In this document: piece by piece, positions 2,557 through 23,121 of the stretch
Layout: each line of letters begins with the position of its first letter
Position numbering within the stretch: position 1 is the first letter of the stretch
Source: Saccoglossus kowalevskii
Taxonomy: Eukaryota; Hemichordata; Enteropneusta; Harrimaniidae
Reading direction: 5' to 3'
NCBI RefSeq assembly: GCF_000003605.2
Contig: NW_003123407.1
Coordinates: 16,032 to 44,259, forward strand
DNA length: 28,228 nt
The notes under the pieces: model-generated
Databases searched by the model: none
The model's input: only the letters and a program-made list of their open reading frames with translations
Told to the model about the DNA's origin: nothing
Position numbers and translations under genes: made by a program

Positions 2557-5500
2557 TCAAAGTTCATTGACTAAAAACATTCCCATGAATGTGGACTCTT
2601 GACGAAAATCCAGTGTTATTCCACTGCTTGGTAGATATGCTTTCATAAATATCTTGTCTCCTTTTCTGAGTTCAAATACACCGCCATGATAACTGCTGTA
2701 GTAGAGATCTGGTGTCTTCTCGATTCCTTCTGCCCGACCACTTTTCATTAAAGTGATGGGATCAGGATAAGCACCGGTTTCTGGTAATTATAAATATATA
2801 CACACTTTTTTGAACAAGAGTAACACAGGTGATTGATTGTTCATTTCAATAACGATTCCCATTTAGCGATCGTATATCAATATATGCATTTAATTATTCG
2901 TATGTAAGTAAATCTTTCCGATAGGTTAATTTTGTGGATGGGGTTTATAGTGAGCGAAACATGTTATTAGGAAACGTTTTGTAGAAATTCGAAAATCGTA
3001 CGAATCGGAAATCAGGATAAAATAGAACAACGTGACATAAAGACAATTTCTTCGAGTGCATATACATACCGAGTACAGTATAATGCAAATATTCGTTCCA
3101 ATTTGAATACTCCCGATCTTCTCGTTCATCCTGGAAATATGCCTGCAGAAATATTTCAAAAGTGTGCATTTATGAGTACTTAGTTAAGCACGAATAATTC
3201 ATCAGTCTACCAATCTTATATCAGTAACTCACCTGGCTGTAGATATGATAGATTCCATGTTTTGGTGCTACCATGCACATCCCAATATCATGCGTGGTGA
3301 TCCCCGATTTTAGTGCGATTCCACTTTTTACTTGCCACGGTCCAACTATGGTCATTCCTGTATTCGTTTTTCCTTCAAACACTTTATCTATTTTAGAAGA
3401 CATGACATTAATACGTAATAAAACATAATAGAAAATCAATACACTTAGAATGTAACTTCCATGCATAACATGGCTAATCAACTAATCCGACCAAAGATGT
3501 GGATTTGGTATTGGCACTGAGTGGAGTTGAAAGGAGCACATAAATATGATATTCAGTGCGTTGTTGAGAGTATATTGAGTACGTTATGGGTATGAATACC
3601 AGTACGAGTGGTTCCATACCCTGCTTGGCCAACTTCTCTTATCAAAAATTCCAACCGTGACATCCGGCTAAGCTCAAAGTTCAGAAATACCTGTCATTAA
3701 ATATCAACAAATATTCCCCGTATAAAACAACTGTGAAGCTTACATATCCACAAAGAGACAACAGACAATGTGTGGAAATGTACACACAGCAAGAACAATG
3801 AGTCACTTGATCAAAAATCAAGATCATCTAAAAAGATAAATTCTGACTTTAATATCAAATTGATATATCGATGATGTGTTTTTCCTGAAAAATTTTAAAT
3901 GTTGCGATTATATACAATTCCAACTGAAAATGAAATCAAGAAAATGGCAAAATCATTATTCGACTTCAAATTAGCTTGCTTCAAATGGAATGTCACGGAT
4001 GCGAAGACATCAAATAGCAGAACACACAGAGAAATAGCATAGCGGAATTGCATGTCTAGGTATTCCATATGGTGGAATGACATATCGTTTTGCGAAATTG
4101 CGATACAAATAATCGAATCTGCCATTGTAGAATGACATGGCATATTCTAATTTTGGCAGGAATACCATGCCATATACAACCTATAGATCACCTAAAAACT
4201 TAGAGGCGTACCAATGTTTGTCTAAGACATTACTTGGCAGCCATCTTCGTCCTTGACAAAATCGACTATTAAAACATCGTTTTAACAGCTTCGGTCGTAC
4301 GAATGTCCCGATAATTGCACGGGACGTTCGTAACGCTATTGGCAAGAAGACGCAGGTTTCTTGCATATTGTCACAAAAAACTACTTAAAACAACTCTAGA
4401 GTTAATGTGGAGCCGGAAACCTCGCAAAGCATGAAATATTTACTGGCTATTTATTACCATAGTTGTATAAAAATATATGATTAAGTTAAAGAAATGTACT
4501 TAGTACCCCCATGAATCAAATCTCACTTACTGGAATAGAATCTTCCATAACCACTTGTTAGATGAATTGCAGCGGTTCTCGTACGAGCTGTTCCATGAGA
4601 TTCACTAATATTACTCAAATTTGAACGTGGCATTAGTGCTGTTAGCTCGTCTATTTCCAGACGTATATCTGTAATTTGAGAAACACTATCGTCTTATTAA
4701 ATGAGCCGGTTAATTTTAAAACAATGACTGTATGGTGTTAAACATCTACAGTTACATCTACAGTGTAGTCACTTAGGAAAATCATAGAAAACTATCAAGA
4801 CCAATCGATTAGCGGGACAGGTTACATTATTTCGGTCTCTTACCAGCCATTTGGTTACTAATTTCAATGTACCCCAGTGCTTTCATGGCATTTTCAATAA
4901 TCTGTGGAGAAAAACAATTATTATATATAAACTTACATATTTTGGTGTTGCACGTATTCCTCGAAACACGATAAAATTGGTTGAACGATTAGTTTACATA
5001 AATAATACGCATCTATTGTACGACTTGTAATTTCTTCATGAGTAATTCAATGTATACCACGTGATAATGGAATGATCATTCTCTTGACTGTATTTGCCGA
5101 AAAACAACCATCGGGCTCAACAATAGCACAATCGTTAAGGGTTCCAACTGTTGTAGTTAATGTTTTCAACATTCAAGGACGAGGTCTTTCTCCTCGCAAT
5201 ATAGACGTAACGAAACTGAAGCTGTACAGTGCTAGGTACAAGATAGTATTTCCAATAACGGTTTACATGTGATGTAGCTAAAACAATGCTTATGAATACA
5301 ACTGGGGTGATGTACACCCTGCAAGTCAATGCAAGTGTGGCTGGTTTACACTCAACATTACAAATGGTTTACCAACGATGGTACAAAAGTAACATACATG
5401 AAGAAAGACAATTCCCTCAGACCAGATATGTAAATCAACACCCACATTTCACAATCCTTACTTTCGTAGAGAATAAAAATAGTAGTATTTACCATATGCA

Positions 5501-5744
5501 ATAAGTTCTGGTCCACATCACAGCATTCACGCTCAATCTTGATAACTTCTTCAAGTGCAGAATTGTTATTTTCGTGATTTAACTGTGCAATTTCCCTCTC
5601 AATAATTGATATTTGTTGATTCAACTTAACAACATAGATCGTAATACCGAATGGATATATAACCAAAATGAGCACGTACGCATACAGTATCAGAACTGCG
5701 TAACTACAAGTAATTCGTCCGTTTGTATTATTCGTATCACTCAT
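2557..5744 (-). CDS. TNF superfamily ligand, gene A (six coding exons)
   Basis: Predicted type II membrane ligand of the TNF superfamily. Exons on the minus strand: 5744-5493, 4901-4844, 4668-4531, 3387-3233, 3142-3070, 2780-2557 (stop). All introns are GT-AG with phases 0,1,1,0,1; the total of 900 bases encodes 299 aa. Residues ~1-14 are the cytoplasmic tail, ~15-38 the membrane segment (contains VIYPFGITIYVV), ~39-70 a heptad-like stalk with C74-C75 after it. N120-L-S and N123-I-S are glycosylation sequons just before the TNF homology domain (~135-299). Domain hallmarks: AAIHLTSG, IVGPWQ, GIYHIYSQ, YPDPITLMKSG, and GGVFELRKGDKIF then TFMGMFLV at the C terminus. Family knowledge predicts a homotrimer binding a TNF-receptor-family protein. 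I start at the Met coded at 5742-5744 because it aligns with gene B; an in-frame upstream Met at 5790-5792 would add 16 residues. The specific TNFSF subfamily is not assignable by eye. Confidence 0.9.
3388..4530 (-). other. Intron 3 of TNFSF gene A
   Basis: This 1143-bp intron lies between the exon ending in GYGRFYS and the exon starting with KVFEGK. The splice sites are clean: donor GTAAGTGAGA next to 4531 and an acceptor ending in AAATAG next to 3387. It holds no convincing coding sequence. Its one notable structure is the hairpin at 4296-4335, listed separately. Confidence 0.75.
4296..4335. repeat. Strong hairpin in intron 3 of gene A
   Basis: The arms ACGAATGTCCCG (ending at 4310) and CGGGACGTTCGT (from 4320) pair over 13 positions with one G-T wobble around a 9-base loop. 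Two more pairs follow after a one-base bulge. It could be a transposon-end remnant or a structured RNA element; nothing in the sequence decides. Confidence 0.5.
4902..5492 (-). other. Intron 1 of TNFSF gene A
   Basis: This 591-bp phase-0 intron follows the exon that encodes the cytoplasmic tail, membrane segment and stalk. Donor ATG|GTAAATAC ends exon 1 at 5493; acceptor CTCCACAG precedes exon 2 at 4901. Plus-strand reading frames inside it (5072-5272, 5286-5504) are unrelated to the gene and show no domain. Confidence 0.7.
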
Positions 5745-6105
5745 AATGCTCTTGCTATATATGGGAAACAGCTTTAGGTAAAGGTGTACCACACAGACTG
5801 GTGGATTTACTATCTTTGTTTCCCGTTTATATTAGCCCAATGAAAAAAATCTGCATAGCATGGCTTCAAAGATTAATTTAGCTATTTTAGCTAGATTCGA
5901 AACCAAGATAAGAAATACAATGGTATTTAAGTGCTGACCTATTGGACTTTGGACATGTATGTTTAAGAAGAAGTAATGTTGTACAGTGGTGCGTGACTTA
6001 GCTATGTGGAACGTCTTGTGACGTAGCTCTGCCCTCGAGTATACACTTAACGTGACAGGTATATCTTAGCAGTACCATATTGAATCTCATACTCACTACT
6101 ACTCA
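5745..6105 (-). promoter_or_regulatory. Probable promoter and 5' flank of TNFSF gene A
   Basis: On the minus strand a TATA-like ATATAAA lies at 5826-5832, about 82 bases upstream of the chosen start codon. It would place transcription start near 5800 and give a 5' leader of about 55 bases. An ATTGG (reverse CCAAT) sits just upstream of it. No NF-kB-like decamer was obvious. The rest of the stretch to 6105 shows no gene. This is inference from position and motif only. Confidence 0.35.
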
Positions 6106-7680
6106 GTCCCCATCTAGTCCGTCTGGCGCTTGTGGCGAAACAAGAATTTCCATCTGGCTCTGCCAGCTGCTATCCTGGGGGCAGTTTCAAGGGACAGTCT
6201 CTTACTTCTGACCTCTTTTTTCTATTGTTTTTCTTCAGGTTTCTCTTGACCGACCTCGGTTTCTCCTCCCTTGAGGCATCTAATATAATGGTTTTCTTTG
6301 GAGAGAAGATGATGGCATGCGGCACACATGTCCCAGCCATCTCCATTGTCGGATTTGGATAGTTTCTTTAATTCATGTTGTTGCTGTTCTTTCACAGAGG
6401 TTTTCATTTGTGATGCTTTTGGCCAGAATATCCTAAAGAATGCTATGTAGGCACTTATTTCGGAACACTTCTAACTTTCTTTCGAAGGAGGAAGTGGTTT
6501 TCCAACACTCTGAACATACTCCGTTGCAGTGTTGTTCCTCAGGACCTTCGTCTTCTTTTCCTTGACTGTTAGGCCGACAGTACTGGTTATCTGGCTGAGG
6601 CTGTCATTCTTTTGCTGTGCATCTTGGTATCGGTGTGAAAGTAATGCTTTATCACCAACGTAATCCAAGTCTTCCATGACTGGGGTGGGGGTTCAATGCA
6701 TTCCTCTACACTTTCCTTTAGTGCTATGTCGCATCACCCAGTCAATTGCTAGGGAGAACAGTAGAGGCGATAGACTGCATCCTTGTTTAACTCCGGTTTC
6801 TACCCTGGAAGATTTGGACAGCTCATTGTTGTGAATGACACAGCATTCAAAGTTCTTGTATCATGGATCATGTTGACCAGCTTCTTTGTAATACCATAGT
6901 GTCTCAAGATCAGCTAGAGAGAGTTGCGATGAAGTCTGTCAAATGCCTGCTTGAAATCTATGAATGTAATGTAGAGTGAGCTGTTCCATTCACTTGATTG
7001 CTCCAGTATTTGGCGCAGAACAAAGATGTGATTTATGCAGGACCTTCCTTTCCTGGAACCTGCTTGCTCTTCTCGTAGTATGGTGTCTACTGCTGCCTTA
7101 ATACTTAATGACGTGGCAGAGAATTGTGCTTGTGAGCGAAAGTAGGGTGATGCCTTTCCAATTGTTGCAGTCCCCAAGGTTTCCTTTCTTGGGTAGTTTA
7201 ATGATGATACCTGTTTTCGAGTCATCTGGTGCTGCTCACTGTTCCATATGTTCTGAAGGATGGAGGATGTGAGGTGTATCTTTAACTTTCACCTCCAGCA
7301 TTTCTGGACATATGACATCCTATCCTGGGGCCTTTCCCTTCTTTAGTTTTTGGATGGCCTCTTCGACTTCCCCCCCACTGTTATTTTTCTTCCATGTTTA
7401 TATCTAGGTCCTATTCTGCTTCATTGATATCAGCAGTAGCAAATGGATCTGGCTGGTTAAAGATTTCTTGAAAGAGCTTTCCAGCTTGTCCGCTCTGATG
7501 TGGTCATAGTTCCATCTCTAGCTTTCACTGGAACATCCTGGGAGTGACCTTGAACCTTTTTGATGTGCAGCAAACTCTGGACAGCTTCTCTCCTTTTGCC
7601 AGGTAGATGTATATTTTTTGTTGTCGTTTCTGTAGCGTAGAAGGTTTTACGGGGTGGGGTTGCTAACCCCACGCCCAACC
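6106..7680 (-). mobile_element. Dead non-LTR retrotransposon (LINE) reverse transcriptase
   Basis: Read on the minus strand, fragments appear in family order. About 7500-7600 reads VKARDGTMTTSE; 7290-7380 reads AIQKLKKGKAPG; 7030-7090 reads EEQAGSRKGRSC; 6945-6980 reads FIDFKQAFD, with the first catalytic Asp block kept. At 6729-6800 is GVKQGCSLSPLLFSL, and at 6620-6677 LDYVGDKALLSH. The last replaces the usual FADD box: the first Asp of the pair is Gly (codon 6654-6656), so the polymerase centre is broken. The frame changes at least five times. A loose tail match (RWKFLFRHKR) near 6120-6160 suggests the 3' end. The endonuclease half is missing, as expected of a 5'-truncated copy. It resembles endonuclease-reverse-transcriptase LINEs common in marine invertebrates; the clade is not certain. 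Confidence 0.8.
7651..7676. repeat. GC-rich hairpin at the 5' end of the LINE relic
   Basis: GTGGGGTT (7654-7661) pairs perfectly with AACCCCAC (7665-7672) around a GCT triloop. After a one-base bulge, GGG (7651-7653) pairs with CCC (7674-7676). It sits where the LINE-like reading ends on its 5' side, so it may belong to the element's own 5' region. Confidence 0.5.
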
Positions 7681-8261
7681 CTCCTCCTTTCTAATCCTGG
7701 CTTGGGACCGACCATGGTCCAAGTGGAATAGACAATATAAATGTACTTACAACTGAAACAAGACAAGTGGAAGAGTTTAGATGATATCTCCATCGAGTTC
7801 TCCTGTAATGCTGTTATAATACTCCATATAGAAAATGATTTACTAAATAATGCTCTATTTGTAAGAAGCGCCATCTAGAGAGTATACTCACTTCATTCCC
7901 ATTTGTATTTGAAGTAATCTTGTGATAATAGTAGCATATTCTAATAGAATATATCTGTATTATATGTTATGGCTTATGAACAGCAATACTCCCCCACAAT
8001 TAATGATAGAGTTATTTAGACAATAAACTAAGCGATGTGGCAACTTATCAAACACTTACCAATCAATAAACCAAGATTTTCTGCTTTGGTGCACATCTGC
8101 CATAATAGTACATTATGCCACTACAACGGATGCGTTATATCCTCTACCAGATACCCACGCTTGCCGTTTATAACCTCTATATGTTAGATTCATTATGTAT
8201 TAATACCTTATATTAAAATATGTTTGGATATTTAGAGTAATAAGAAATTGACACTCCCGGT
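7681..8261. other. Intergenic, no gene seen
   Basis: AT-rich sequence with no domain-bearing frame. A minus-strand reading frame at 7647-7874 only overlaps the LINE edge. One CTCF-like core (GCGCCATCTAGAG, minus orientation) lies at 7866-7881. Confidence 0.5.
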
Positions 8262-8425
8262 TCGGTTAGACTTAAAATACACCACGAATATTTACTTTAA
8301 GATATAATTGTTGGTATGTGTTGGTTCTTGGATATTTCATCTTCGTCGTCCTGGACTTCGTGCAGTAATTCGAACCTCCCAGACATCGAAAATGCCTTTG
8401 CTTCATTATTTGCTTAGGTATGTGC
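8262..8425 (+). repeat. Dispersed repeat family R1, copy 1
   Basis: About 160 bases match 10633-10800 in the same orientation, including GGTATGTGTTGGTTCTTG and an AGTAATTCGAAC block, with scattered substitutions and small indels. The pair brackets the ~305-bp tandem array at 9740-10565, so the two copies may be parts of one larger disrupted element. No transposase is visible between them. Confidence 0.65.
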
Positions 8426-8465
8426 TCTGTAACTTACTGCACATGAATCTAAAAACGTTAGCTAA

Positions 8466-8831
8466 TCAAACAAAAAGTACGTTCAATGTCTGCATATTTT
8501 CGTAGCATAAAAACGATTTATTCTCTTGCTTACTGTGGCACTCACAAACCAACTGATTTCCATTCCCCTCAAGAGTCAAAATGGTATGTGCCTCCATTTT
8601 ACGCCACGACACGAAAAGTCTTTTTTGCTTGACGTGTTCATTTGCCTTCAATTGCGTTTCAGTGGCTGTCACAGTCGTATTCTGAGTCTTGTCAATAACA
8701 TTTTGGTACAAATTCACGTAGATATCGCTGAGAAATCTCAAATTTTCTACTAAAGCTAATTTGCATAACACTGTTTTTGTCCTTGGTCGCCATATTGGAC
8801 ACCGCTTATAACTAGGGAAATTCACTCGCAT
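8466..8831 (-). CDS. Unassigned 121-codon reading frame, doubtful
   Basis: This is the longest uninterrupted frame outside the recognised genes (121 codons, ATG to stop). It contains a Thr/Gln-rich middle and a late CECHSKQ segment, but no signal peptide, membrane segment or domain that I recognise. It borders repeat R1 and is opposed by a plus-strand frame of 75 codons, so it may be a transposon fragment or chance. I list it only because of its length. Confidence 0.15.
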   Translation of the reverse strand: MRVNFPSYKRCPIWRPRTKTVLCKLALVENLRFLSDIYVNLYQNVIDKTQNTTVTATETQLKANEHVKQKRLFVSWRKMEAHTILTLEGNGNQLVCECHSKQENKSFLCYENMQTLNVLFV

Positions 8832-9739
8832 TGAATTGCGTTCTGCACTTTCTCATACATAAAGACGGTTTTTATCCTCGATTATTGAAATCAAAATATA
8901 ATTGAGGTAGCTATTTTTCGCTTGGAAAGGTATTCACGCTAAATTTTGGATTTGGCAAATAGTCTCTCACCCTTTGGTTATTACACAGGTACTGTAGTTA
9001 TTACAGGTATCATTGATTTTTCGCCGACGGAATGATTCACTTTCCAAATGTTGACCTTGACCTTTTTTCGCTCGAAAGGCAAAGGCGATAAGACTAGATT
9101 CTCAATGACGCAGGTCGTTTGGATCGGACAATTTATTTTGTTTCGAATTCGTTGTACGCTTAGAAACATGGCAGTTGTTTTCTGGTAATATATAACATGT
9201 TCTGTTCCAATAAAGGATGTTGATATACATACAAATTCCTTACTAAAACATTTCCTGTACTCTCTAAAATTTGACAATGCCACTAGCCCAAGATAGACCT
9301 CCTGTTCGACACGTTGTTGAATGTTCGCGTCACTGTACGTAAAAACACACTCTCGGACTTGACACTTTTAAAGTTCAGACCATTAAGCAAAAAACTATTT
9401 ACTATTATTTTTTTTTACTATTCTGACGTGTTCTGGGCTGTATATAACAGTCAGACACTGACAAGTAAGTAAGTACTAGTAAACAGACCGGGGAATACTC
9501 AATACAAGTCGGTAGGCTGGTTGGCGATCCGCTCCGCTCAATGTTCGCAAAAATCATTCAGTCTTTAGAAGTCACTTAATTTATAATATTACTAGGACGT
9601 ATTCTGCTGTCACATTTATTATTTCCAATCATTTCGCGAAAGTATTTTCTAAAATGATAGGCAGCATTTACAGTTCATACAAAGTTGCATTGGGATTAGG
9701 TTGATACAGTGTAACAGTGTCGGCGCCAATGCGCAAAGT
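8832..9739. other. Intergenic, no gene seen
   Basis: Only short overlapping frames occur (for example 8981-9283 minus, 100 codons), with no recognisable motif. No RNA gene or clear repeat boundary was found. Confidence 0.45.
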
Positions 9740-10565
9740 AGCCAAAATAAAAAGCATGATCATTTGAACAATGCTAATACAAAACTGGTAGGTGGTAATA
9801 AATTTGGGGCGAAAGTATTCAAAAATCAGTTTTTGGCTGTTGCAATAGCAGTGGTGGGCAGGATTGTTTTCCAATCAGTGACAGTACGACCTACATGTCA
9901 AGTATGAACAATATCAGCCAAGCCAAAAAATCACAGGAGTTAAATAAAAGCCGTTGCTGGTGTAAAGTTACCCAAATGTTGGAGTAAATTTTCTCGGTAA
10001 TGAAAATAAACATAAAAAAACAAGATTTTTTGCCCACATTCAAGCTGAGTAGAATGAGTTACGTCCGTGCTTTTTAATGCTAGAAATGTAGGGTGTGATA
10101 CATTTGGCGCGAAGGTATTCAAAAAATCAGTTTTTGGCTGTTACCATGAAAACGGTGGGCCAGAATTTTTTTTCAGATTTAACAACCTAACTAGAGTGAA
10201 GGTGTTACTTGCTTCAAATCGGGCGGAAAAAAAATCACAGAAGAGTTCAAAAGCCATTCCTGGTGAATGGTTACCCCAACTTTGGGGTCAAATTTTTCAG
10301 TAATGAAAAAAGATGACAAAAATTCAAATAGTTTGTGCCCACACTCAAGCTGAGTAGAAAGAGCTATGTCTAAGGTATGTTATCCTAAATTTGTAGGAGG
10401 AGATACATTTGGTGCGAAGCTATCCGAAAATCAGTTTTTTGGCTGTTGCTATGGCAACGGTTGGCCAACATTTTTTTTTTAGATTTTTTCTAATAGGTGT
10501 AACCTACATGCCAAGTGTGAGCGAAACCGGCCAAGCCAAATAAATTACACAAGAACTAATACGTG
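9740..10565 (+). repeat. Tandem array, ~305-bp unit, three imperfect copies
   Basis: Copies start near 9740, 10041 and 10346; the last is truncated. Each contains, in order, a CAAGCTGAGTAGA block (degenerate in copy 1), a GATACATTTGGCGCGAAG-like block, ATCAGTTTTTTGGCTGTTG, then GGCCAA plus a T-run. The first two also carry a late block with AAAAATCACAG. At the same place in each copy sits an imperfect 14-base palindrome; in copy 3 (10445-10458) it is GTTGCTATGGCAAC, a near-perfect RFX X-box. Copies 1 (9839-9852) and 2 (10140-10153) are degraded versions. Short frames within it are by-products of the repeat. Confidence 0.8.
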
Positions 10566-10632
10566 AAAACACTGGAAATCTCACACACAGACACACACAA
10601 ACCTACAAATGTGATTTTAAGAGCAATCCTAG

Positions 10633-10800
10633 CGGTTCTAATGGACTTTAAAATACATCACAAATATTCACTTTTGAGATATGATTTTTGGTATGTGTTG
10701 GTTCTTGAATATTTCAGCTTCGTCGCCCTGTACTTCATTTAGTAATTCGAACTTCCCTAATTTCGACATCAAAAATGCCTTGGCTTAATTGTTTGCTGAG
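10633..10800 (+). repeat. Dispersed repeat family R1, copy 2
   Basis: Same-orientation partner of 8262-8425. Shared blocks include AAAATACATCACAAATATT-like sequence, GGTATGTGTTGGTTCTTG, AATATTTCAGCTTCGTCG and AGTAATTCGAAC. It follows the tandem array after a short CA-rich run (about 10584-10601). Confidence 0.65.
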
Positions 10801-11869
10801 GAACGGTCGTACATTTTCTGTATAAAAATATTGATTGCTTTTGTGCAGGTTATATAATAAAATAATTAATATTTATTTATTTTTAATTTTATTTATTAAA
10901 CCATGTACTTTCACACTTGAAAATACCAATTGTTTTCACAAATAAAAAAAAAGAACTGCAGACCTCACTTCTTTATATTTTTGAGTGGGCCAGCCAAGTT
11001 TCCACATACAAAAATACACATAATATTTCTATTTAATTTATTTTATTTTATAATATAATATAATATTGTCATTGAATTCTTTAAAATAAATTTACCATTT
11101 GCAAATTAATGTGTTGAACACTATATAATCGTAATATTTTACAATCCATATCCTTATATTTGAATCTGTTTCAAGACATTGGAAAACAATATTTTAGAAG
11201 CATAACAATACAACGACTAGATTTGGTGTTTCAGTTTACTCCCAAATCATACTGGAATATTGCCAGCAATAATTAATAAAGCTTGTTCAGAATACCATTT
11301 ATTCCCGACATCATATTCAATGGATAGTTCTCAGGATCTACAACAGTAAATAAATAAACAGAAATCACTTTGAAGCCATGTTTTTTAAACGACACCGCCA
11401 TATAGCACAGATATTCAACACCGCCATATCGAATTTGGATTTGGACCATACCAATTCAAGCTGCAGGGTGTCTAAACAATGACTCAACAAACAATAAACA
11501 CATCTTCCACCCACCACACAAATTTTAGCTATAATTGAACAACCAAGAAAGCAACAAATATCAGGCTGCATCTTGAAAACAACGAGATACCGCATTACAA
11601 CCAGTCATTACAAACATGAAATCCTCCACCCCTCCCAGTACACCCTACAGCATTAATGGTTCCTATACTCATTTGCATCTATGTACAACAAGCTTAGCCA
11701 ACAGATGCACCTGACTCGTCAACTTTTTGACCAACCACTCATTCTAAATATTGTTGAGTGAGTGCGCTATTTACTAATGAGAGGAATCTTTTATAAAAAT
11801 TAATAAGGATGGTATTCCCAGAATAGTGCAGGTTGTTAAAGAAACATAAAACTTTAATTCTCAACAACG
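10801..11869. other. Very AT-rich intergenic stretch
   Basis: Long A/T runs dominate 10850-11110 (repeated ATTTATTTTTA-like words). A minus-strand frame at 11365-11595 (76 codons) has several cysteines but no known pattern and lies over two short GACACCGCCATAT / AACACCGCCATAT repeats. No gene is called. Confidence 0.5.
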
Positions 11870-12500
11870 ATGAAAGGACCAGTTACTGTGACAAAGCCCT
11901 ATCCCCCGCGAGACCCACCCAATACGAAACCCACTTACCGCGTAAGCCACTTACAACGAAGCTACTAGTTGAATAAGAAAAAAAAATGTTCATCAGTATA
12001 AGTTATCCCTTTTAAGCTGCAGTAATATTCCGCAGTATTCGATTCACGCCACTGGACATATACTATACCCCCGGCGGTGACTTCCAGACAAAACTGGTAC
12101 TCATCAGCGTTCCTATATTCTCGGAGAAAGGGGGTTATTTTTGTTGAATATCACGATCCGGGAAATCGTAAAAAAGGGCTACTTTTAAAAAAATAATGGG
12201 GGGAAATGTGGCGTTCAACGATCCCCGGCAACGCAATGCGTACGTACCCGGCGCCCGGACCCGGCTTATGTACTAAGAAGAACTCCACGGTTTATTTAAC
12301 AGCGTGAGCTTCGTAATCGGGAGGGGTTATAGTATCGTTCATGCCAGGAAAATGTTCGACAGTCGCGTACGTCGTGGCAGATGCAAAAATTGTGAGACAT
12401 GCAGTGAGTTTGTGAATGAAAACAAGCCAAAAAGCCTGCGATGTGGTTATTGTGGTTGTGTTCCAGAGGGTTCATGTGGTGAGCTGTACAACACATAACA
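11870..12500 (+). pseudogene. Coding-like block ending in a cysteine cluster, unassigned
   Basis: The block is GC-richer than its surroundings. One plus frame starts at ATG 11870, runs proline-rich to a stop at 11966, and is open again from 12026 to 12307 with only one stop (12194-12196); it contains residues such as TSRQNWYSSAFLYSRRKG. A second frame is open from 12196 to 12498 with one stop at 12274. It ends in a cluster of seven cysteines: CKNCETC, then CGYCGC, then one more Cys, which looks like a zinc-binding module. A TTTAACAG acceptor-like site precedes it at 12302, and AATAAA lies at 12661-12666. It is either a decayed gene or transposon ORF that changes frame near 12.2-12.3 kb, or exons of a gene I cannot assemble. 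I do not recognise the family. Confidence 0.35.
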
Positions 12501-12746
12501 CTGGTAGACATGATTCTTTCACCCCGTCATTCACGTAATATCAAAATCAGGGATTAGAAGGTCGCTATATTCTGTCAGTGGAGCAACATCTACAGCACAG
12601 TCCAGAAGGATAAGAAGTTATTCTTTATGGCTCCTAAAATGTGCACACGTGGTTTAGGTAAATAAATATATGCTCCCAGATTTTGGGAAAAAATGTGTAT
12701 TTTTTACTTTAAATTTCTCATAGATTTATTATAAATAGGGGCTGTT

Positions 12747-13010
12747 TCATGAGAAATTATCAGAGAAAAAGGGATATACCGCATGAATGCCACCGCCGGG
12801 AATGTACAACCAATGTAGTATCCATGACGTACATACCCATAGCGAGGCTGGTGGGTAGGCCATCATTCCACATATCAGATTGGAGGAGTTCGTTATCACC
12901 GAACCGTAATACCCTTCTGACCCTGGAGCTCTGACGACATACTCATATAGTGGGTAGCAATGGAAGCGTAAGATGGTCGTGAAAACTAAACCTGTGGACA
13001 GAAACCCCAT
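12747..13010 (-). CDS. Hydrophobic 87-codon frame, doubtful exon
   Basis: The minus frame is rich in aromatic and hydrophobic residues (LVFTTILRFHCYPLY early; SLWVCTSWILHWLYI late), suggesting one or two membrane segments. A good 3' splice site (TTTCTGTCCACAG) lies inside it near 12990, so it could be an internal or terminal exon of a membrane protein. No partner exons or family could be identified, and the opposite strand is also open over 61 codons. Confidence 0.15.
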   Translation of the reverse strand: MGFLSTGLVFTTILRFHCYPLYEYVVRAPGSEGYYGSVITNSSNLICGMMAYPPASLWVCTSWILHWLYIPGGGIHAVYPFFSDNFS

Positions 13011-14605
13011 GGAAATATAAAATCTAAGGTTGTATGGGAAACCAAATTGGCCGCCATTGGCAGGGACTGTTTCAACTGGGTAAACATTGTCCTACACGTC
13101 TGTCACTATTTTATAACAATTTTTCTGTATTTGTTTGTATCGGACCATTGTGTGAGAGCTAAAAACTACCGAGCTAAAATAAATTACACTAAACTGAAAG
13201 CACTTAACTCCGGTTTAGATGGGTCGAGGTGTAATGTTAAATAAACAATGTTGCATAGTAACATTGGCATGTATATAGTATGTTATGTATATGTGCATGT
13301 ATGTCACATGACCTGTGAACATTCAACTGACCATTGCCAGACCAAATATACGCATAGTCGTATTCACACACACACATGTGACAAATAATACTTCAAGCAG
13401 TTGTATTTACGAGCCGCTGTGAAAAGTTACAATCCTCGACTTACCAGGCAATACTTAAAGGTCTTCGAAAGGTATGGAGTTTTGATGAGAGCCAATTTAC
13501 CTCGTACTGATTCGTTTTTTAAAGCTTGTGTCAAGCACCGTTGTGCTCATATACTTTGAATACGATTCTGTTTAATTCTGTTTTAACTGCTTAAATTTCC
13601 CGTGAATGACAAATGTTTCTGTGTGGTATGCAGTAAATTTCTTTGAGATACACGGGGAAGTCACATAAAATACACAAACTAGTGTATAAAATATCTGTTA
13701 AAAAACGTGTTCACTGTCGGAGCGTGGACGAAGCGTAATCAGAGTATAATTAAATACACAGATATATGTGGACGTAGACAAGTCGGGGAAAGGGGGACAA
13801 ACAAATAACATGTCTGACCTTATCTTTACAACGCATTCAATAGATTAATTACGAAGTTGGGCAATTTATAGCCATGTACCTTAAGTAGGCCAGTTAGTCA
13901 CCGTGGAGCATTCTGGGATACTGTTACATGGTCATGTTTCTCTTTAGTTTTATTGACTATAAAGTGTAGTTAACAAGAACCAGTATATTAGTGATAAAAT
14001 GATGAATGATGTTACTTGTTTCACATTCATTTGGCTGTGTTTCTCATCTACTAAAACTACAAATCAAGGATTACTATGACATTATATTTAACAAACAGAC
14101 TTTGTCGCCAAATATATATGATTACTTTTATATTCATATAAGCTAGATATAGATCTCAAGCAGAATTGATAAATGACGCTATAAATGACCAGGACTGTAA
14201 TTCATACTAGACAGTTACAACAGTATATTTTACAACGATGTGAATTGTTTCCACGTCAGTAAGATAGGCGTTCGTACTATGCGATACTATGCCTAAAATA
14301 TCCATTATTTCGTTGTTTTCTTTCGTTTTTTTCTATATGTAATCTGTGGTTGTAAAAAATGATAAAAATGAAATGCCGATTAATAATTTTGATATAAAAT
14401 CTTTCATAACCTAGAAATATTTCAATAAAATAGTTTTGCACCACACGATGGAATATTTAAAAAATATTCATTAAACATTGCCAAGCTCATTTTAAGTCCC
14501 ATAAGTGTATGGGAAAGTTTCACATATTTTGTAGCAATCACATCGATGTCAACTGGTTGATTACGTTTCTTCTATAATCAGTACAAAACAATCCTCGGAT
14601 ATTTG
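13011..14605. other. Intergenic and 3' flank of TNFSF gene B, no gene seen
   Basis: A 65-codon plus frame at 13047-13244 has a hydrophobic core but no other support. A CA-repeat lies at about 13365-13376. Sequence from 13980 on is AT-rich and must include the 3' UTR of gene B (minus strand) just below 14606; no canonical polyadenylation signal was placed. Confidence 0.5.
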
Positions 14606-17600
14606 CTACCTATCTACATTACTGATCAGATACATTCCCATGTACGTCGCTTCTTGGCGGGAATCCAAAGTAATTGCGTCATTTGGTAGATACACTTTCA
14701 TAAATATCTTATCCCCCTTTCTGAGCTCAAAGACGCCTGCATGGTAGCTACTGTAATAGTAGTCTGATGAACCACTGATTCTTTCTGCACGTCCACTCTT
14801 TAATAAAGTGATAGGCTCGGGATAGGCATCACTCTCTGTTGGTTAGATAAGTATGAATAAATAGAACTTCATAAACTACATTCGTTTCGTTCAATTGCAA
14901 ATGGTGAACCAGTTTGGCAGGAATCTTTCTAATACACAAGTTTCTTTCTAATACACAAGTTGTAGTGTACTGCACAGTCTCAGTACAAATCTAAATATTA
15001 CTACTGATGATGAACTCATTTTGAAAAGAATAATTACCGAGTACAGTGTAGTGGAGGTACTCATTCCAGTTTGGAAGTTTCCGATCTGCATATTCCCGTT
15101 CATCTTGAAAATATGCCTGAATAAAAAAATCAAATGAAAATTATCTTCTATACACATTCCCCATTATGGGATGTGTTTTCGCATCAACGTCCTTGTCTCA
15201 GTTGAACTCCAACACTCACCTGGCTATAAATGTGATATATGGCATGGCAGGGTGCAATCATGTACATTCCATTCAGTGTAGTAATTCCAGATTTCAGTGT
15301 AATACCTGTCTGTCCTTGCCATGGGCCGACTATCACCTTGCCGATTTCCCCTTTTTCATTCACTGGTCTATCTGAGTGAATATTATACATTTTCAGGAGA
15401 AATCGTCATTAAAAGGCGTGTTGTTTGTCCATGACAAAATTGCCCCGACAAATGATATGAAGAGGGTCGGCAAGGGATATTTTCGTAAGCTGTAATCAAT
15501 TGTTTTTATTTTGGTAATAATGTAATTTAAATAAATAAAAAGCGTGAATTCGTAGACATGGGCAAGGTGTAAAATGTAATCAGCTATTTCATTCGTCCGT
15601 AATTTGTACAAATATATTATTTTTTGGAAGCGTATAAAGCATTTTTCAAATTAAATGTCGTAATTCATACGCAATTTCCAATTTTGATTTTTAAACACAA
15701 ATTATCAAAAATATTATAAAAATAAAAAATGTAATTAGGAATTTGCTTTATCTGTAAAGTGTAAAAACCTATTTTTTACTCTAAATGGAATTTTCATTTT
15801 ATTTCCTGTAAAAACGTAAATGCCGTTTTTATTTCCTGTAACCTGTACCAGCTATCCCCCCTTGCCTCCATTCTATGAATATAAGATTTGTTGACCATTC
15901 TGTTTTAAATTTTCAGCATCTAACTATATACGTCAAAAAACAAGTGTATTTGAAAAAGAATATGAACTTACTTGAAACGAAACCTAGGTAACCACTTGTT
16001 ACGTGGATCGCAGCTTTTATATGCGTTTTTGACTTTTTAGGCAGTGTCTGTGGCGTACTGTCAGTGTGCGTGTCCATTCGCTCAAGTGCATCTCTAATGT
16101 TTTCATTGACTGTTTGGCGAATTTCTGTAATTTGATTAAAAAAAAACAGTCATTCTGTCATAAAATCAATGAGACATTAATAATACATGGCATTACTGTG
16201 ATTGTATAATGATGTAATTACATTTATACATTGCTATAGCAACCGAGTTGCCATAGTAGACAATAGAAATTTTACGAAACGTTCTTTGACAGTATGAACG
16301 GTTGAATTCAAAATTATGGCGTTCTCATTGACAAGCTTTAATTGCGATAACACCAATTTTTGTCCGACTTGGTTATGTAGCCGAAGTTTCTGATTTCCGG
16401 CGATATATGTAAAAATCAATCACGTAATCATTAATATGATTATTTTCGTGGCAGTATTAACTGTGAAATATTAGATCAATCGGCACAATTGTGATTAGTG
16501 GTAAAATATATTTGCGTACATTTCCCCTAGTACCGCACCTGTGTGCAGTGAATTTTTTTTTTTTTTGGGATAAGAAAATGACGTCCAGTCTCCGTGAGCC
16601 AATGTTAGACAGGCAAAGTCGGGACTTCTTTTTTGTTTTACAAAAAGAAATAATTAATTGTTGTTTTAGTCCTTTTAGCGTGATCGCGAAAGCTAACCTG
16701 ACCGCTGAAAGAAATCCCGACTGGACGCATCTGCGGGCATTTGACTGATATTAATTATTCATGATGTCATTGAGTATTCATGAGTGGGTGTGTGAAAGTA
16801 AACGCGACCTTTTAAAAATAATTCGATTCGATCGCAGAGAGGAATACTTCAACTATTTTAAGGGCAACGGCGATACTTTCATCAATGTTTACTGAAAACA
16901 AGTCGATTTAAATGTCCAATGTATATAAGTAGTCTTTCAAAATCGCCGGGACCTCAGAAGTGAAAGGTCACGCACATTAACAAAGATAAGAGATGACATA
17001 TACAGCTGCACTTTGATTCGTTGTCAATGCTTGTCAATATCTTTTAATTAGCATAATCACCGGAGTGATTCTGCTCCAGTTTTCACTCCAACGCAGGGGG
17101 CCACCTGCAGATGCGTCCAGTCGGGATTTCTTTCGCAGTCATGCTAGTTTTTGCGATCACGTTAAAAAGGCTAAATTGACAATTAATTAAATTTTTTTTT
17201 GTCAAACAAAAAATAAGTCTCGACTTTGCCAGTCTAGGCCAATGTGTGTAACATAGCCTGAAAAACATCACAGTACAATTTAAAGCTGCTACTGGATGTC
17301 TACAAATAAATGCAATATTGACATCGCATAGGTGTCGATATTCTTGAGTTAAGATTTGTTGTCATAGTTATGGTAGTTTGTGAAGAGAGCTTGAAAACAT
17401 ACTTGGATATTTGAGTAGCGACACACATACTGTCAATGGAGTGATTGGCCTTTGTTCATTCATTCTATTGTTTTCGGTGAGTTTGAACTGAATATAAAAG
17501 TTTACATGTTTTGTCTATTGGCGTGGATAAGAGTAAAACGTAGGGTGCTTACAAATTCCTTATAACGTAATATACATGTGCTTACCGTCCATGCGTTCTT

Positions 17601-19133
17601 CGATGTACAGTGTGTCAATTACTCCAATGGCGTTGTTGATAAACTGCAAGAATTATAAAATAAGAATTATAAAATAAACAAACATAATTTAACGACCGCA
17701 GGAATCATGGGTGAATCTCTAAAATATATAGAATTATTGTGTACATTTTGTTTATTTATTTAAGGTGGAAGCCTGCGCATGAACGAAAATTGTAGGTATT
17801 GTATAAGTATGTTTGTTTATCGGAACAAATACCATTATACTCATTGCTAATAATACTGTTCTAGTGTCTTGATTATGATGTGCGTGAAGTCATATTGAAC
17901 CATTCTGATATGTTTGGCGTAAGTATAACAGACTTCCAGGCATAGGTTTAACAGACTTGGTGAAATTGGTAGATTTCCGCTGAGAACCGTTAGTATGTCT
18001 CGTATTGTTAAATGTTGTTATAAATGCCAATTTGAAAAAAGATTACAAGTGCTGGGCATGTAATGTGAAGAAACTGTTGTTGAGTTTTTGTTTCGGTGTG
18101 GCAAGGGGTTGGCAATGTAAATATGTTTGTATCCGCCTTTGAACAAATATCTCTAATATTGCTACACAGCAATGGTCAATACGTCTGCAATCATTTTCAA
18201 AGCTTGACACCTATCCTCTCTATAAATATAATCTGGTTTTAGAGAAATATCTGTTCTTTATTGATAATGGTTTTCTTAGGTGTTCCCCATCCCATGCAGA
18301 TTACTTGTTTCTAGTCACAGATTGCGCATCGAAATTGGTAGGGCGGGAATATTCCCAGAGAAAGAAGAATCTGCACTTTAGGTGCTTTACAGAAAGTGGA
18401 AGATGTCCCTCATACAAACATTTGAGAGAACATTTTTCCCTCCTTACTCTTACAAATACTCATCAAAAATAAAATGTATTTCACTTTTAAATTCTCCTAA
18501 CCCGTTTGTACTTCTGTCTTTATCAATGTATATATTCCATGGTTTCAAATTAAAAGACAATATTATTTCCAATGTTGATGAAGAAGGTATGAGCATTCCT
18601 TTGCTTTTGTGAATATTTTGGTGTGTATAAGGCCAACGGTCTACAATACTGTAATACAAACAAAATAACAGACTGTCGTACTCTTCTGTCGTACTTACAG
18701 TGATATAAAATCCTTTAACTTACCATTAAGCAGTAAGTATATTTGATTGTTATCGAAATTTCTGGTTAATAGTGTGGTAAATATATTCCATAAAATATTA
18801 TGTAGGTTTTTGGTTTGAATGACGATGATGCCAGTGAATTAATTTGATACCGTTATTGTTTATAATAAAATAAATTACAATTAATATAGTTACCATTTGC
18901 ATAGTGTCTTCTTCTATGGTACAAGCTTGGCAAATGTATGTCTCAGTTTGTTCCTCTTTGATCTCTGTCGAGTTTACGTTATCATAATTTTTTCGATGAG
19001 TTTCCCTCTCCAAAACAGAAATCCTGTGGTTTACTTTCATGACGAAAATGGTTGTACCCAATGGATATACAATAAATATGACTATAAGCAGAAATAGGTT
19101 TAAAAATAATAAAATGTCATGCCGTTTTTCCAT
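14606..19133 (-). CDS. TNF superfamily ligand, gene B (six coding exons)
   Basis: Tandem paralogue of gene A. Exons on the minus strand: 19133-18894, 17643-17586, 16124-15972, 15371-15220, 15116-15038, 14835-14606 (stop). All introns are GT-AG with phases 0,1,1,0,1, identical to gene A; 912 bases encode 303 aa. Residues 1-6 (MEKRHD) are the cytoplasmic tail, ~7-32 the membrane segment (contains FIVYPLGTTIFVMKV), then a stalk with HRISVLERE, sequon N54-S-T and cysteines C68 and C71. A basic linker PKKSK (128-132) precedes the TNF homology domain (~136-303). Domain hallmarks: AAIHVTSG, IVGPWQ, IYHIYSQ, YPEPITLLKSGRAE, AGVFELRKGDKIF and TYMGMYLI. The final exon matches gene A at about 50 of 69 aligned residues (hand count). 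Predicted role: trimeric cell-surface or shed ligand for a TNF-receptor-family protein. Subfamily is not assignable by eye. Confidence 0.9.
14925..14962. repeat. 19-bp tandem duplication in intron 5 of gene B
   Basis: CTTTCTAATACACAAGTTT at 14925-14943 is followed directly by the same 19 bases with one change at the last position (14944-14962). The near-identity suggests a recent slippage event. It lies within the 202-bp intron 5, well away from both splice sites. Confidence 0.85.
15372..15971 (-). other. Intron 3 of TNFSF gene B
   Basis: A 600-bp phase-1 intron with donor GTAAGTTCATA next to 15972 and an acceptor ending TTCACTCAG next to 15371. It is very AT-rich between 15480 and 15850, with two near copies of ATTTCCTGTAAAAACGTAAATG / TTATTTCCTGTAACCTGT words at about 15799-15845. 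No coding sequence is seen. Confidence 0.75.
16125..17585 (-). other. Intron 2 of TNFSF gene B
   Basis: A 1461-bp phase-1 intron, much longer than the 175-bp counterpart in gene A. The difference is largely explained by the inverted-repeat structure at 16597-17240. It also holds two X-box-like palindromes around 16231-16258 and a run of 14 T (16553-16566). Reading frames 16491-16748 (plus) and 17083-17271 (minus) are the two arms of that inverted repeat read in opposite directions, not genes. Confidence 0.75.
16597..17240. repeat. Long inverted repeat inside gene B
   Basis: The left arm 16597-16737 and right arm 17104-17240 are inverted copies, separated by about 366 bases. Shared blocks include GGCAAAGTCGGGACTT (left) against GGCAAAGTCGAGACTT (right, reversed), TAATTAATTG, CGTGATCGC and GAAATCCCGACTGGACGCAT with no mismatch in that last block. 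Arms are about 137-141 bases with several small indels. This could be a MITE or foldback element with long terminal inverted repeats, or two copies of one repeat inserted head to head. Confidence 0.8.
17648..17677. repeat. Tandem duplication at the 3' splice site of intron 1, gene B
   Basis: The word AAGAATTATAAAATA occurs twice in a row just upstream (in transcription sense) of the acceptor of exon 2. On the minus strand this doubles the ATTTTATAATTCTT tract that leads into the CAG acceptor at 17646-17644. Confidence 0.8.
17930..18570 (+). mobile_element. LINE relic, region downstream of the reverse transcriptase domain
   Basis: Plus-strand pieces in shifting frames follow the order of the conserved C-terminal region of CR1/Daphne-like LINE polyproteins. 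They read LGEIGRFPL (about 17960), VWQGVGN (18098 on), then QQWSIRLQSFSKLDTYPLY through LEKYLFFIDN (about 18168-18270), SHRLRIEIGR (18315-18345), RICTLGALQKVED in a third frame, and CPSYKHLREHF (about 18402-18436). Several frame changes and stops show it is dead. The order of motifs, rather than any single one, supports the call; the clade is uncertain. It sits antisense in intron 1 of gene B and so is transcribed as part of the pre-mRNA. Confidence 0.6.
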
Positions 19134-21550: not shown

Positions 21551-22028
21551 GGAACATGCTGTTTTATTAATTTCACTAAAGACGACTTCAACTCCCTGGG
21601 CCTAATGTTACGGGCAGCGACTTCTTAACCAGGAAAAGTCGTGAATTATTTACTGGTCAAATGTGTCATAACCTTTTTTTATTTAGTGTTGCAAAATTTT
21701 CTGAAAGGACAAATTGTGTATTTGTATAATCGTTACTTATCATATTTTGATAAATAACGAACCTGGTTCATCTCATTCAATGTAGTACGTTGCTAATTGA
21801 TCGAATAGTTGTTGACCTGTTCTGGTGTTGAATAGCCCTCGTTTCACTTTGATATTCGGCGAAATGAGCCAAAGGGCTTCCCGGTTAATCACTTAAAACG
21901 TAGAACATAGTAGTACTTGAGACATACTGTTTTATTTGAAGGACTATTTTCTCACTAAAGACGACCTCCACACCCTGGGCCTAATTGTTACGGGCAGCGA
22001 TTTCTTAACCAGGAAAATTCGTGAATTG
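21551..22028 (+). repeat. Repeat mosaic B-A-B' (family R3)
   Basis: Module B (21551-21648) recurs as B' (21923-22028): CACTAAAGACGAC, CCTGGGCCTAAT, TTACGGGCAGCGA and TTCTTAACCAGGAAAA are shared. Module A (21722-21917) lies between them and recurs alone at 22931-23121. The spacing between B and B' is about 375-380 bases, as in a partial tandem duplication. Confidence 0.75.
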
Positions 22029-22930
22029 TGCGTTAACAGTAATTATCCTATGCTTAGATAATATTTATAGCGCTGTTCTCTAATCTGTATTGCACGTGCT
22101 ATGAGTCAGGCGCTGTTCATATTTTGTTTATATAATTCATTATAAATATCTCAAGTGAGTATTATGTTCAGATTGTATTACTTATTTTTTTTATAAAATT
22201 CAAAGTTAGTTTTATATATTGGTAATGCAACCAGATGGCGATAAATTTGGGGAAATTAACTAGTAGGCTGGGGGGCCTCAGCCTGATACCGGCGAATAAA
22301 TACAATGTTATTGGAATTCATTATAATTATCTCAAAGTATGTCAAGGCTGTATTATTCAGTATGAAATTTAGTGTCGAGTATGAATATGATATTGATTCA
22401 AATTTTAAATACATTTGCATATCGAACACCGCTTTGGCTTCACCGCTTGCATGTAATGAATATTGTTGAAAAATGAATGCCAATCGATTGTTGGTCATTT
22501 TCCATATTGCATTTTCAGGTTGTGTATATAACGTTCGCCAACCTAATCGTACTACCTGGAACAGACAAGCTGGGTGAAACAAGGGTTAAAAAATCGCCAT
22601 GGAACACTAAGCATCCACCCCCCCGAGAAACCACGTGATACATGTTTACGTCACAACTAAACTAATCATTACCCTAGAGTTCATGCCTGCCCAGGACGTG
22701 TTATCCACGTGTTCTGTCGCTCTGTGTTTTATTCCTTTTATTTCTAAATTCTGGCTGTAATTTGTAAATTACAGTTCTATACATCTTCTTGACTTGTGAA
22801 CAGTAGCACTTTTAATCAGAAGGGGAACATTTTCGGAAAGGAAAAAATGGTGTTATTTGTGTTTTCTACTTCGTGCAAAGGTCAGTACAACGTGTCAATG
22901 ACGTCACTCATTTCCATACCGTATTTCTTT
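22029..22930. other. Intergenic, no supported gene
   Basis: A 108-codon minus frame (22256-22582) has no recognisable domain and lies over AT-rich sequence. A weak ~60-base internal repeat (AATTCATTATAA, ATCTCAA, TTGTATTA words) occurs at about 22133-22185 and 22315-22360. A CTCF-like core in plus orientation (ACCAGATGGCGAT) lies at 22228-22243. Confidence 0.45.
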
Positions 22931-23121
22931 TCATATAATCGTTTCTTATAATATTTTAATAAAAAAACGAACCTGATTCATCTCATTCAATGTACGTTGA
23001 TCGAATAAATGTTAACGTGTTCTCGGGTTGAATGATTCTTGTTTCACTTTGATATTCGGCGAAATTAGCCCGAGGGCTTCCCAGAAAATCACTCAAAACT
23101 CCGTAGAACATCGTAGTACCG
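22931..23121 (+). repeat. Family R3, second copy of module A
   Basis: Same-orientation match to 21722-21917. Shared blocks include CGAACCTG, TTCATCTCATTCAATGTA, TTTCACTTTGATATTCGGCG, GAGGGCTTCCC-like sequence and GTAGTAC at the end, with small indels. It lacks an adjacent module B. Confidence 0.75.

Follow-up and report, generated by a model that had tools for sequence, protein, structure and literature searches.

Two neighbouring TRAIL-like TNF ligand genes of the hemichordate Saccoglossus kowalevskii are probably old duplicates kept by purifying selection

A stretch of 28,228 nucleotides from the hemichordate Saccoglossus kowalevskii (RefSeq assembly GCF_000003605.2, contig NW_003123407.1, positions 16,032 to 44,259 of the forward strand), which we refer to as the window, carries two genes for ligands of the TNF superfamily, designated A and B. 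Analysis of their sequences indicates that they are very probably two working TRAIL-like ligand genes, old duplicates within a family of at least five, and that both have been kept by purifying selection. Contig C4830 of the assembly (17,037 bases; COX1 by PF00115, E = 8.1e-142) is the mitochondrial genome; its frames, read by eye, show COX1 inverted relative to the other genes, ND2 ahead of ND1, ND5 beside CYTB and ND4L beside ND4. Under translation table 5, methionine occupies several COX1 sites at which isoleucine would be expected, which suggests that ATA encodes Ile. For S. kowalevskii, PMC3121625 describes an inverted COX1, a transposed ND1 or ND2 and AUA read as Ile, and PMC2697986 finds ND5 and COB side by side in both of its hemichordates and ATA = Ile in echinoderms as well as hemichordates. 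Gene order and code thus fit S. kowalevskii, or a close relative, as the very probable source.

Both genes were spliced in silico from the window and were found on its minus strand as complete six-exon coding sequences (Table 1). Their limits were exactly those of the original prediction, which had been made from the letters of the window: position 2557 is the last base of the stop codon of A, and position 19133 is the first base of the ATG of B. The spacing, described as about 9 kb, is 8.9 kb from the ATG of A to the stop codon of B. Intron phases after exons 1 to 5 are 0,1,1,0,1 in both genes, and the 58-base exon 2 that had been noted in both copies was recovered by splicing. All ten introns have GT-AG ends and neither frame contains an internal stop, in agreement with the claim that both copies are intact, and the junctions in A and B together number ten, rather than the "eleven-plus" that had been listed. 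The TNF domain spans the end of exon 3 to exon 6 in each gene and is split across four exons, as proposed, with the Pfam match starting in exon 4.

Membership of the TNF superfamily held for both proteins, since each matched the Pfam TNF domain PF00229 above its curated cut-off of 23 bits (A, E = 5.8e-17, 62.3 bits; B, E = 2.4e-14, 53.8 bits). Ligand classes were ranked by E-value against chains of solved structures only. In this comparison the closest structure to A was TRAIL (TNFSF10, E = 1.1e-16), followed by FasL (4.1e-7) and RANKL (3.1e-6), and the closest structure to B was also TRAIL (1.9e-15), followed by RANKL (1e-10) and TL1A (1.2e-6). The best 19-residue hydropathy was 2.45 in A (from residue 11) and 2.89 in B (from residue 7). 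In both proteins the hydrophobic stretch lies close to the N-terminus, a stalk of some 100 residues separates it from the TNF domain, and the TNF domain occupies the C-terminus, a layout that resembles a type II membrane ligand. Their domains match TRAIL structures best, and the alignments share with TRAIL the IYSQ core, a YP[DE]PI stretch in which the Tyr of YPDPI in TRAIL is retained, and a KSxR strand. We take this Tyr to be important for receptor binding. The type II membrane plan, predicted from sequence in A and B, is also that of TRAIL as described in PMC9950482. In contrast to these likenesses, the domains of A and B are only 29-33% identical to TRAIL and carry three additional residues ahead of the GITLD/AITLD strand.

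Evidence that both copies have been kept comes from the comparison of A with B. The two proteins are identical at 148 of 291 positions overall, at 113 of 163 (69%) in the TNF domain and at 35 of 128 before the domain. The strong conservation of the domain reported for the pair was therefore confirmed, at the level of close paralogues, and the tails and stalks have diverged while both domains were kept. Within the domain, the proportion of synonymous differences (pS) was 0.74 and that of replacement differences (pN) was 0.18; the synonymous distance (dS) was 3.15 and is saturated. The dN/dS comparison proposed with the original prediction was run, and the Nei-Gojobori (NG86) ratio was about 0.07 in the domain (300 resamples, interval 0 to 0.17, with zeros due to the saturated dS), a value that is only a rough guide because dS is saturated. 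Replacement changes in the two domains have nevertheless clearly been held back. Saturated synonymous sites together with few replacement changes indicate an old duplication in which both copies were kept by selection. Of the claim that the copies were kept intact and are both used, the intactness was observed directly, and the low replacement divergence set against saturated synonymous divergence argues for use.

The wider family was sought in the 572-Mb assembly, in which the contig of the window is labelled C1595. Protein B gave at least 14 exon matches on four contigs: ten on C1595, which are the six exons of B and four exons of A, two on C3982, and one each on C2594 and C3460. The matches on the latter three contigs point to one further TRAIL-like gene on each, and the TRAIL-like genes predicted in the genome number at least five (A, B and the genes on C2594, C3460 and C3982). 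A genome search with PF00229 gave seven matches, of which two were on C1595, two on C3460, one on C2594 and two on C3324. The model built for the C2594 gene has exons of 330, 58, 150, 143, 79 and 221 bases, phases 0,1,1,0,1, a hydrophobic stretch in exon 1 and a weak donor (GTTAGT) at exon 5. Exons 1 and 3 to 6 of this model were placed by similarity and frame. Exon 2 was chosen by length from 14 open in-frame candidates of 52-64 bases, two of them of 58, so that the 58-base exon stays a candidate only as a feature of the family. On C3460, exons 4 to 6 were readable downstream of a long run of N, with phases 1,0,1 at introns 3 to 5. The domain introns of both the C2594 and C3460 genes lie at the same places as those of A and B, with phases 1,0,1, and the C3982 gene resembles A and B in having the YSQ break ahead of a short exon 5. 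Unlike A and B, which lie side by side, these paralogues sit on other contigs, and their domain identity to A and B is 46-49% (C2594 and C3460) and 40-44% (C3982).

No further copy was found within 9.9 kb on either side of the A/B pair, where weak matches outside the named exons were treated as chance. The idea that the pair has a third tandem neighbour, or another last exon close by, was rejected, as these flanks gave no match and the matches on C1595 all fell within the exons of A and B.

Several results weigh against the proposed history of A and B or against a closer definition of their class, in addition to the roughness of the NG86 ratio. Identical exon phases had been offered as a sign that the pair arose by duplication. 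The phases are indeed identical, but the C2594 and C3460 genes share the domain introns, which thus belong to the family and provide no evidence for duplication of A and B. Identical phases as the mark of a recent duplication were ruled out, given that dispersed paralogues share the domain introns and that synonymous sites are saturated. The relationships of the genes were assessed in trees of nine, ten and seven rows, in which two TRAIL chains were the only rows from other animals; the rows did not include the third last exon of an EDA-like gene (described below), nor other ligand classes, FasL and RANKL among them. A and B were sisters at 100/99 in the nine-row tree, which was built without C3982, and A, B and C3982 grouped at 100/99 with ten rows and at 99/99 with seven. 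Trees with few outside rows thus placed A and B together and did not assign them to two separate ancient TNFSF clades. With C3982 included, A and B were sisters in just 15% and 16% of the bootstrap trees from two row sets, and the best seven-row tree joined A with C3982 at 70/70. The approximately unbiased (AU) test rejected neither of the other two pairings, A with B (p = 0.24) and B with C3982 (p = 0.23). The three genes form one group, within which A and B are a candidate pair of sisters.

The same results are those expected if the duplication goes further back and was more than a simple tandem event, with A (or B) nearest to C3982, and with A and B as the remnant of an ancient three-gene cluster from which one gene moved away. 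The firm grouping of the three genes and the pairing of A with C3982 favor this account, as does the slightly higher domain identity of A to C3982 (64 of 146 positions) than of B to C3982 (59 of 147). However, the branch of C3982 is long (1.37 and 2.3) and its placement is unsure for this reason, the AU test did not reject A with B, A and B were firmly paired when C3982 was absent, and the identity between A and B (113/163) is far higher than that of either to C3982. We consider the three-gene cluster somewhat unlikely. It is very improbable that either gene is a recently formed pseudogene or an allelic copy retained by the assembly. Nothing was found in favor of this, both frames and all ten introns are intact, the synonymous sites are saturated far past allelic divergence and domain pN lies well below pS; on these grounds A or B as a pseudogene was rejected.

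The class of the ligands was judged with similar caution. In TRAIL, Cys230 is the zinc ligand at the trimer axis and stabilizes the trimer, according to PMC9950482. The aligned stretch contained no Cys in any of the five genes (A, B, C2594, C3460 and C3982), and A and B each have a single domain Cys elsewhere, at residues 187 and 192, respectively. Because the zinc cysteine of vertebrate TRAIL is absent, A and B are called TRAIL-like rather than TNFSF10 orthologues, and TNFSF10 orthology is a possibility only. In the ten-row tree the five TRAIL-like genes were set apart from TRAIL with 86/86, below the mark for strong support, and the split between TRAIL-like and EDA-like sequences was also below that mark (92/90 with nine rows, accompanied by a long-branch warning, and 94/94 with ten). 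We infer, and do not observe, the topology, the trimer, the type of receptor and any role in immunity or cell death of A and B. A reading in which the genes belong instead with RANKL (TNFSF11), or fall outside both TRAIL and RANKL, would agree with the second rank of RANKL for B and with PMC12843592, which assigns TNFSF10 and TNFSF11 to a single ancestral set (V12). We regard it as unlikely, as the E-value of TRAIL was better than that of the runner-up class by about nine orders of magnitude for A (over FasL), five for B (over RANKL) and six for the C2594 protein (over TL1A), for which TRAIL was again the best structure.

TNF ligands are trimers held at the membrane, from which they may be shed; they bring receptors on adjacent cells into clusters and trigger NF-kB, JNK or caspase signalling. 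Under the favored reading of A and B as TRAIL-like ligands, each gene would encode a type II protein whose short inner tail and single membrane helix are followed by a stalk of roughly 100 residues and, at the C-terminus, the TNF domain. The domain would form a homotrimer and bind proteins of the TNF receptor family, presumably death-receptor-like, on neighbouring cells. A and B would have arisen from an old duplication in a family that shares its domain introns and would have stayed side by side, with purifying selection acting most strongly on the receptor-binding domain while tails and stalks diverged. We further propose, tentatively and as something we would sooner doubt than expect, that the TRAIL branch was present and expanded before the split of hemichordates and chordates, with this exon plan and without the zinc site, that the zinc site arose later in the vertebrate line, and that A and B, as long-kept ligands, divided tasks between them, with a similar receptor surface but different stalks and tails and hence different display or shedding, perhaps with mixed trimers.

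A tandem pair such as A/B is in itself ordinary for the TNF superfamily. PMC12843592 reports that in tunicates TNF ligand genes have often been duplicated in tandem, independently of one another, to reach up to 14 genes per species, and infers that tunicates have lost the TNFSF10/11-type gene. The Saccoglossus pair is thus similar to the tunicate copies in its tandem arrangement and differs from them in that the TNFSF10/11 type is the expanded one. Lancelet "TRAIL-like" ligands (Huang et al.) are cited in PMC12843592 as close to TNFSF10/11, and A and B can be likened to them, by description only, as an invertebrate deuterostome set near TNFSF10/11. The four-gene ligand model of that paper is based on tunicates and vertebrates with lancelet support cited. 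No paper on hemichordate TNF ligands was found among titles and abstract openings on TNF ligands, which is not proof that none exists. What the present genes add is a TRAIL-like family of at least five members with shared domain introns in a hemichordate, a phylum outside the chordates, and their value lies in dating the split of the TNF ligand classes.

The two TNF genes on contig C3324 are of another class, with 4zch and EDA as their best structures. By its name, 4zch is TNFSF13 joined to a second TNF ligand, and we take it to be an APRIL-BAFF fusion. In the EDA-like gene on this contig (Table 1), a single exon encodes the first half of the TNF domain, up to ..GLYYIYSQ ahead of a GTAAGT donor. 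Downstream lie three complete last exons; all have a CAG acceptor in the same phase, and each carries a stop of its own. AATAAA or ATTAAA follows each last exon (at 6216, at 7420 and from 8144 to 8274), such hexamers being frequent there. Pairwise identities among the three were 46%, 30% and 34%, with pS of 0.92, 0.86 and 0.77 and pN of 0.39, 0.49 and 0.48. From its exon layout, the gene looks as if it could swap the second half of its TNF domain by way of alternative last exons; rival explanations are that the last exons are partly decayed duplicates or that 5' exons were unread. A search of 29.1 kb, some of which consists of N, turned up no other first-half exon. The second TNF domain on this contig lies about 43 kb from the EDA-like gene, and the contig therefore represents a second TNF ligand neighbourhood.

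Table 1 Features of the window and of related loci. Positions are those of the window unless a locus is named; locus positions count within the interval given.
Feature	Position	Strand	Content	End phase	Basis
Gene A	5744-2557	-	299 aa; exons 252, 58, 138, 155, 73, 224 bases		splicing
Gene A exon 1	5493..5744	-	ATG, short cytoplasmic tail, predicted transmembrane helix (~residues 13-39), stalk start	0	splicing, hydropathy
Gene A exon 2	4844..4901	-	58 bases, stalk	1	splicing
Gene A exon 3	4531..4668	-	stalk and first TNF-domain strand (AAIHLTSGY)	1	splicing
Gene A exon 4	3233..3387	-	TNF domain to ..YHIYSQ	0	splicing, Pfam
Gene A exon 5	3070..3142	-	TNF domain AYFQDE..YTVL	1	splicing
Gene A exon 6	2557..2780	-	second half of TNF domain and stop codon		splicing, PF00229 match
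Gene B	19133-14606	-	303 aa; exons 240, 58, 153, 152, 79, 230 bases		splicing
Gene B exon 1	18894..19133	-	ATG, short cytoplasmic tail, predicted transmembrane helix (~residues 7-32), stalk start	0	splicing, hydropathy
Gene B exon 2	17586..17643	-	58 bases, stalk	1	splicing
Gene B exon 3	15972..16124	-	stalk and first TNF-domain strand (AAIHVTSGY)	1	splicing
Gene B exon 4	15220..15371	-	TNF domain to ..YHIYSQ	0	splicing, Pfam
Gene B exon 5	15038..15116	-	TNF domain AYFQDE..YTVL	1	splicing
Gene B exon 6	14606..14835	-	second half of TNF domain and stop codon		splicing, PF00229 match
C3982 gene, fifth TRAIL-like, fast-evolving	L037 (G000:C3982:13763-14700)		exons 4 and 6, probable exon 5, possible exon 1		
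EDA-like gene	L009 (G000:C3324:157000-166500)	+	frame 4717-4950; last exons 5884-6120, 7048-7284, 7466-7708		
Second TNF domain on C3324	L010 (G000:C3324:199000-208500), ~5990-6380	+	closest to 4zch (TNFSF13-type) and EDA		
Direct repeat, diverged	10022-10478		152 nt twice, spacing 305, 76%		
Direct repeat, diverged	21797-23099		103 nt twice, spacing 1200, 83%		
Direct repeat, diverged	8296-10766		94 nt twice, spacing 2377, 84%		

Several repeats and minor frames were also observed in the window, among them three diverged direct repeats (Table 1). Between A and B, on the minus strand, positions 6693-6860 and 6914-7288 gave two RVT_1 matches that fell short of the curated cut-off (E = 7.6e-6 and 1.8e-5), and these frames are probably retroelement remains. 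A plus-strand frame at 355-561 matched DUF1759 (E = 3.4e-11), a domain that we take as characteristic of polyproteins from Pao/Bel-type retroelements. Intron 2 of gene B contains a fold-back element (16606-17236) with three inverted-arm pairs, 366-539 bases apart, whose arms include 31 nt at 97% and 46 nt at 89% complementarity. A small CxxC-rich frame on the plus strand (12277-12498) gave a weak zf-CXXC match (E = 0.098) that could be chance.

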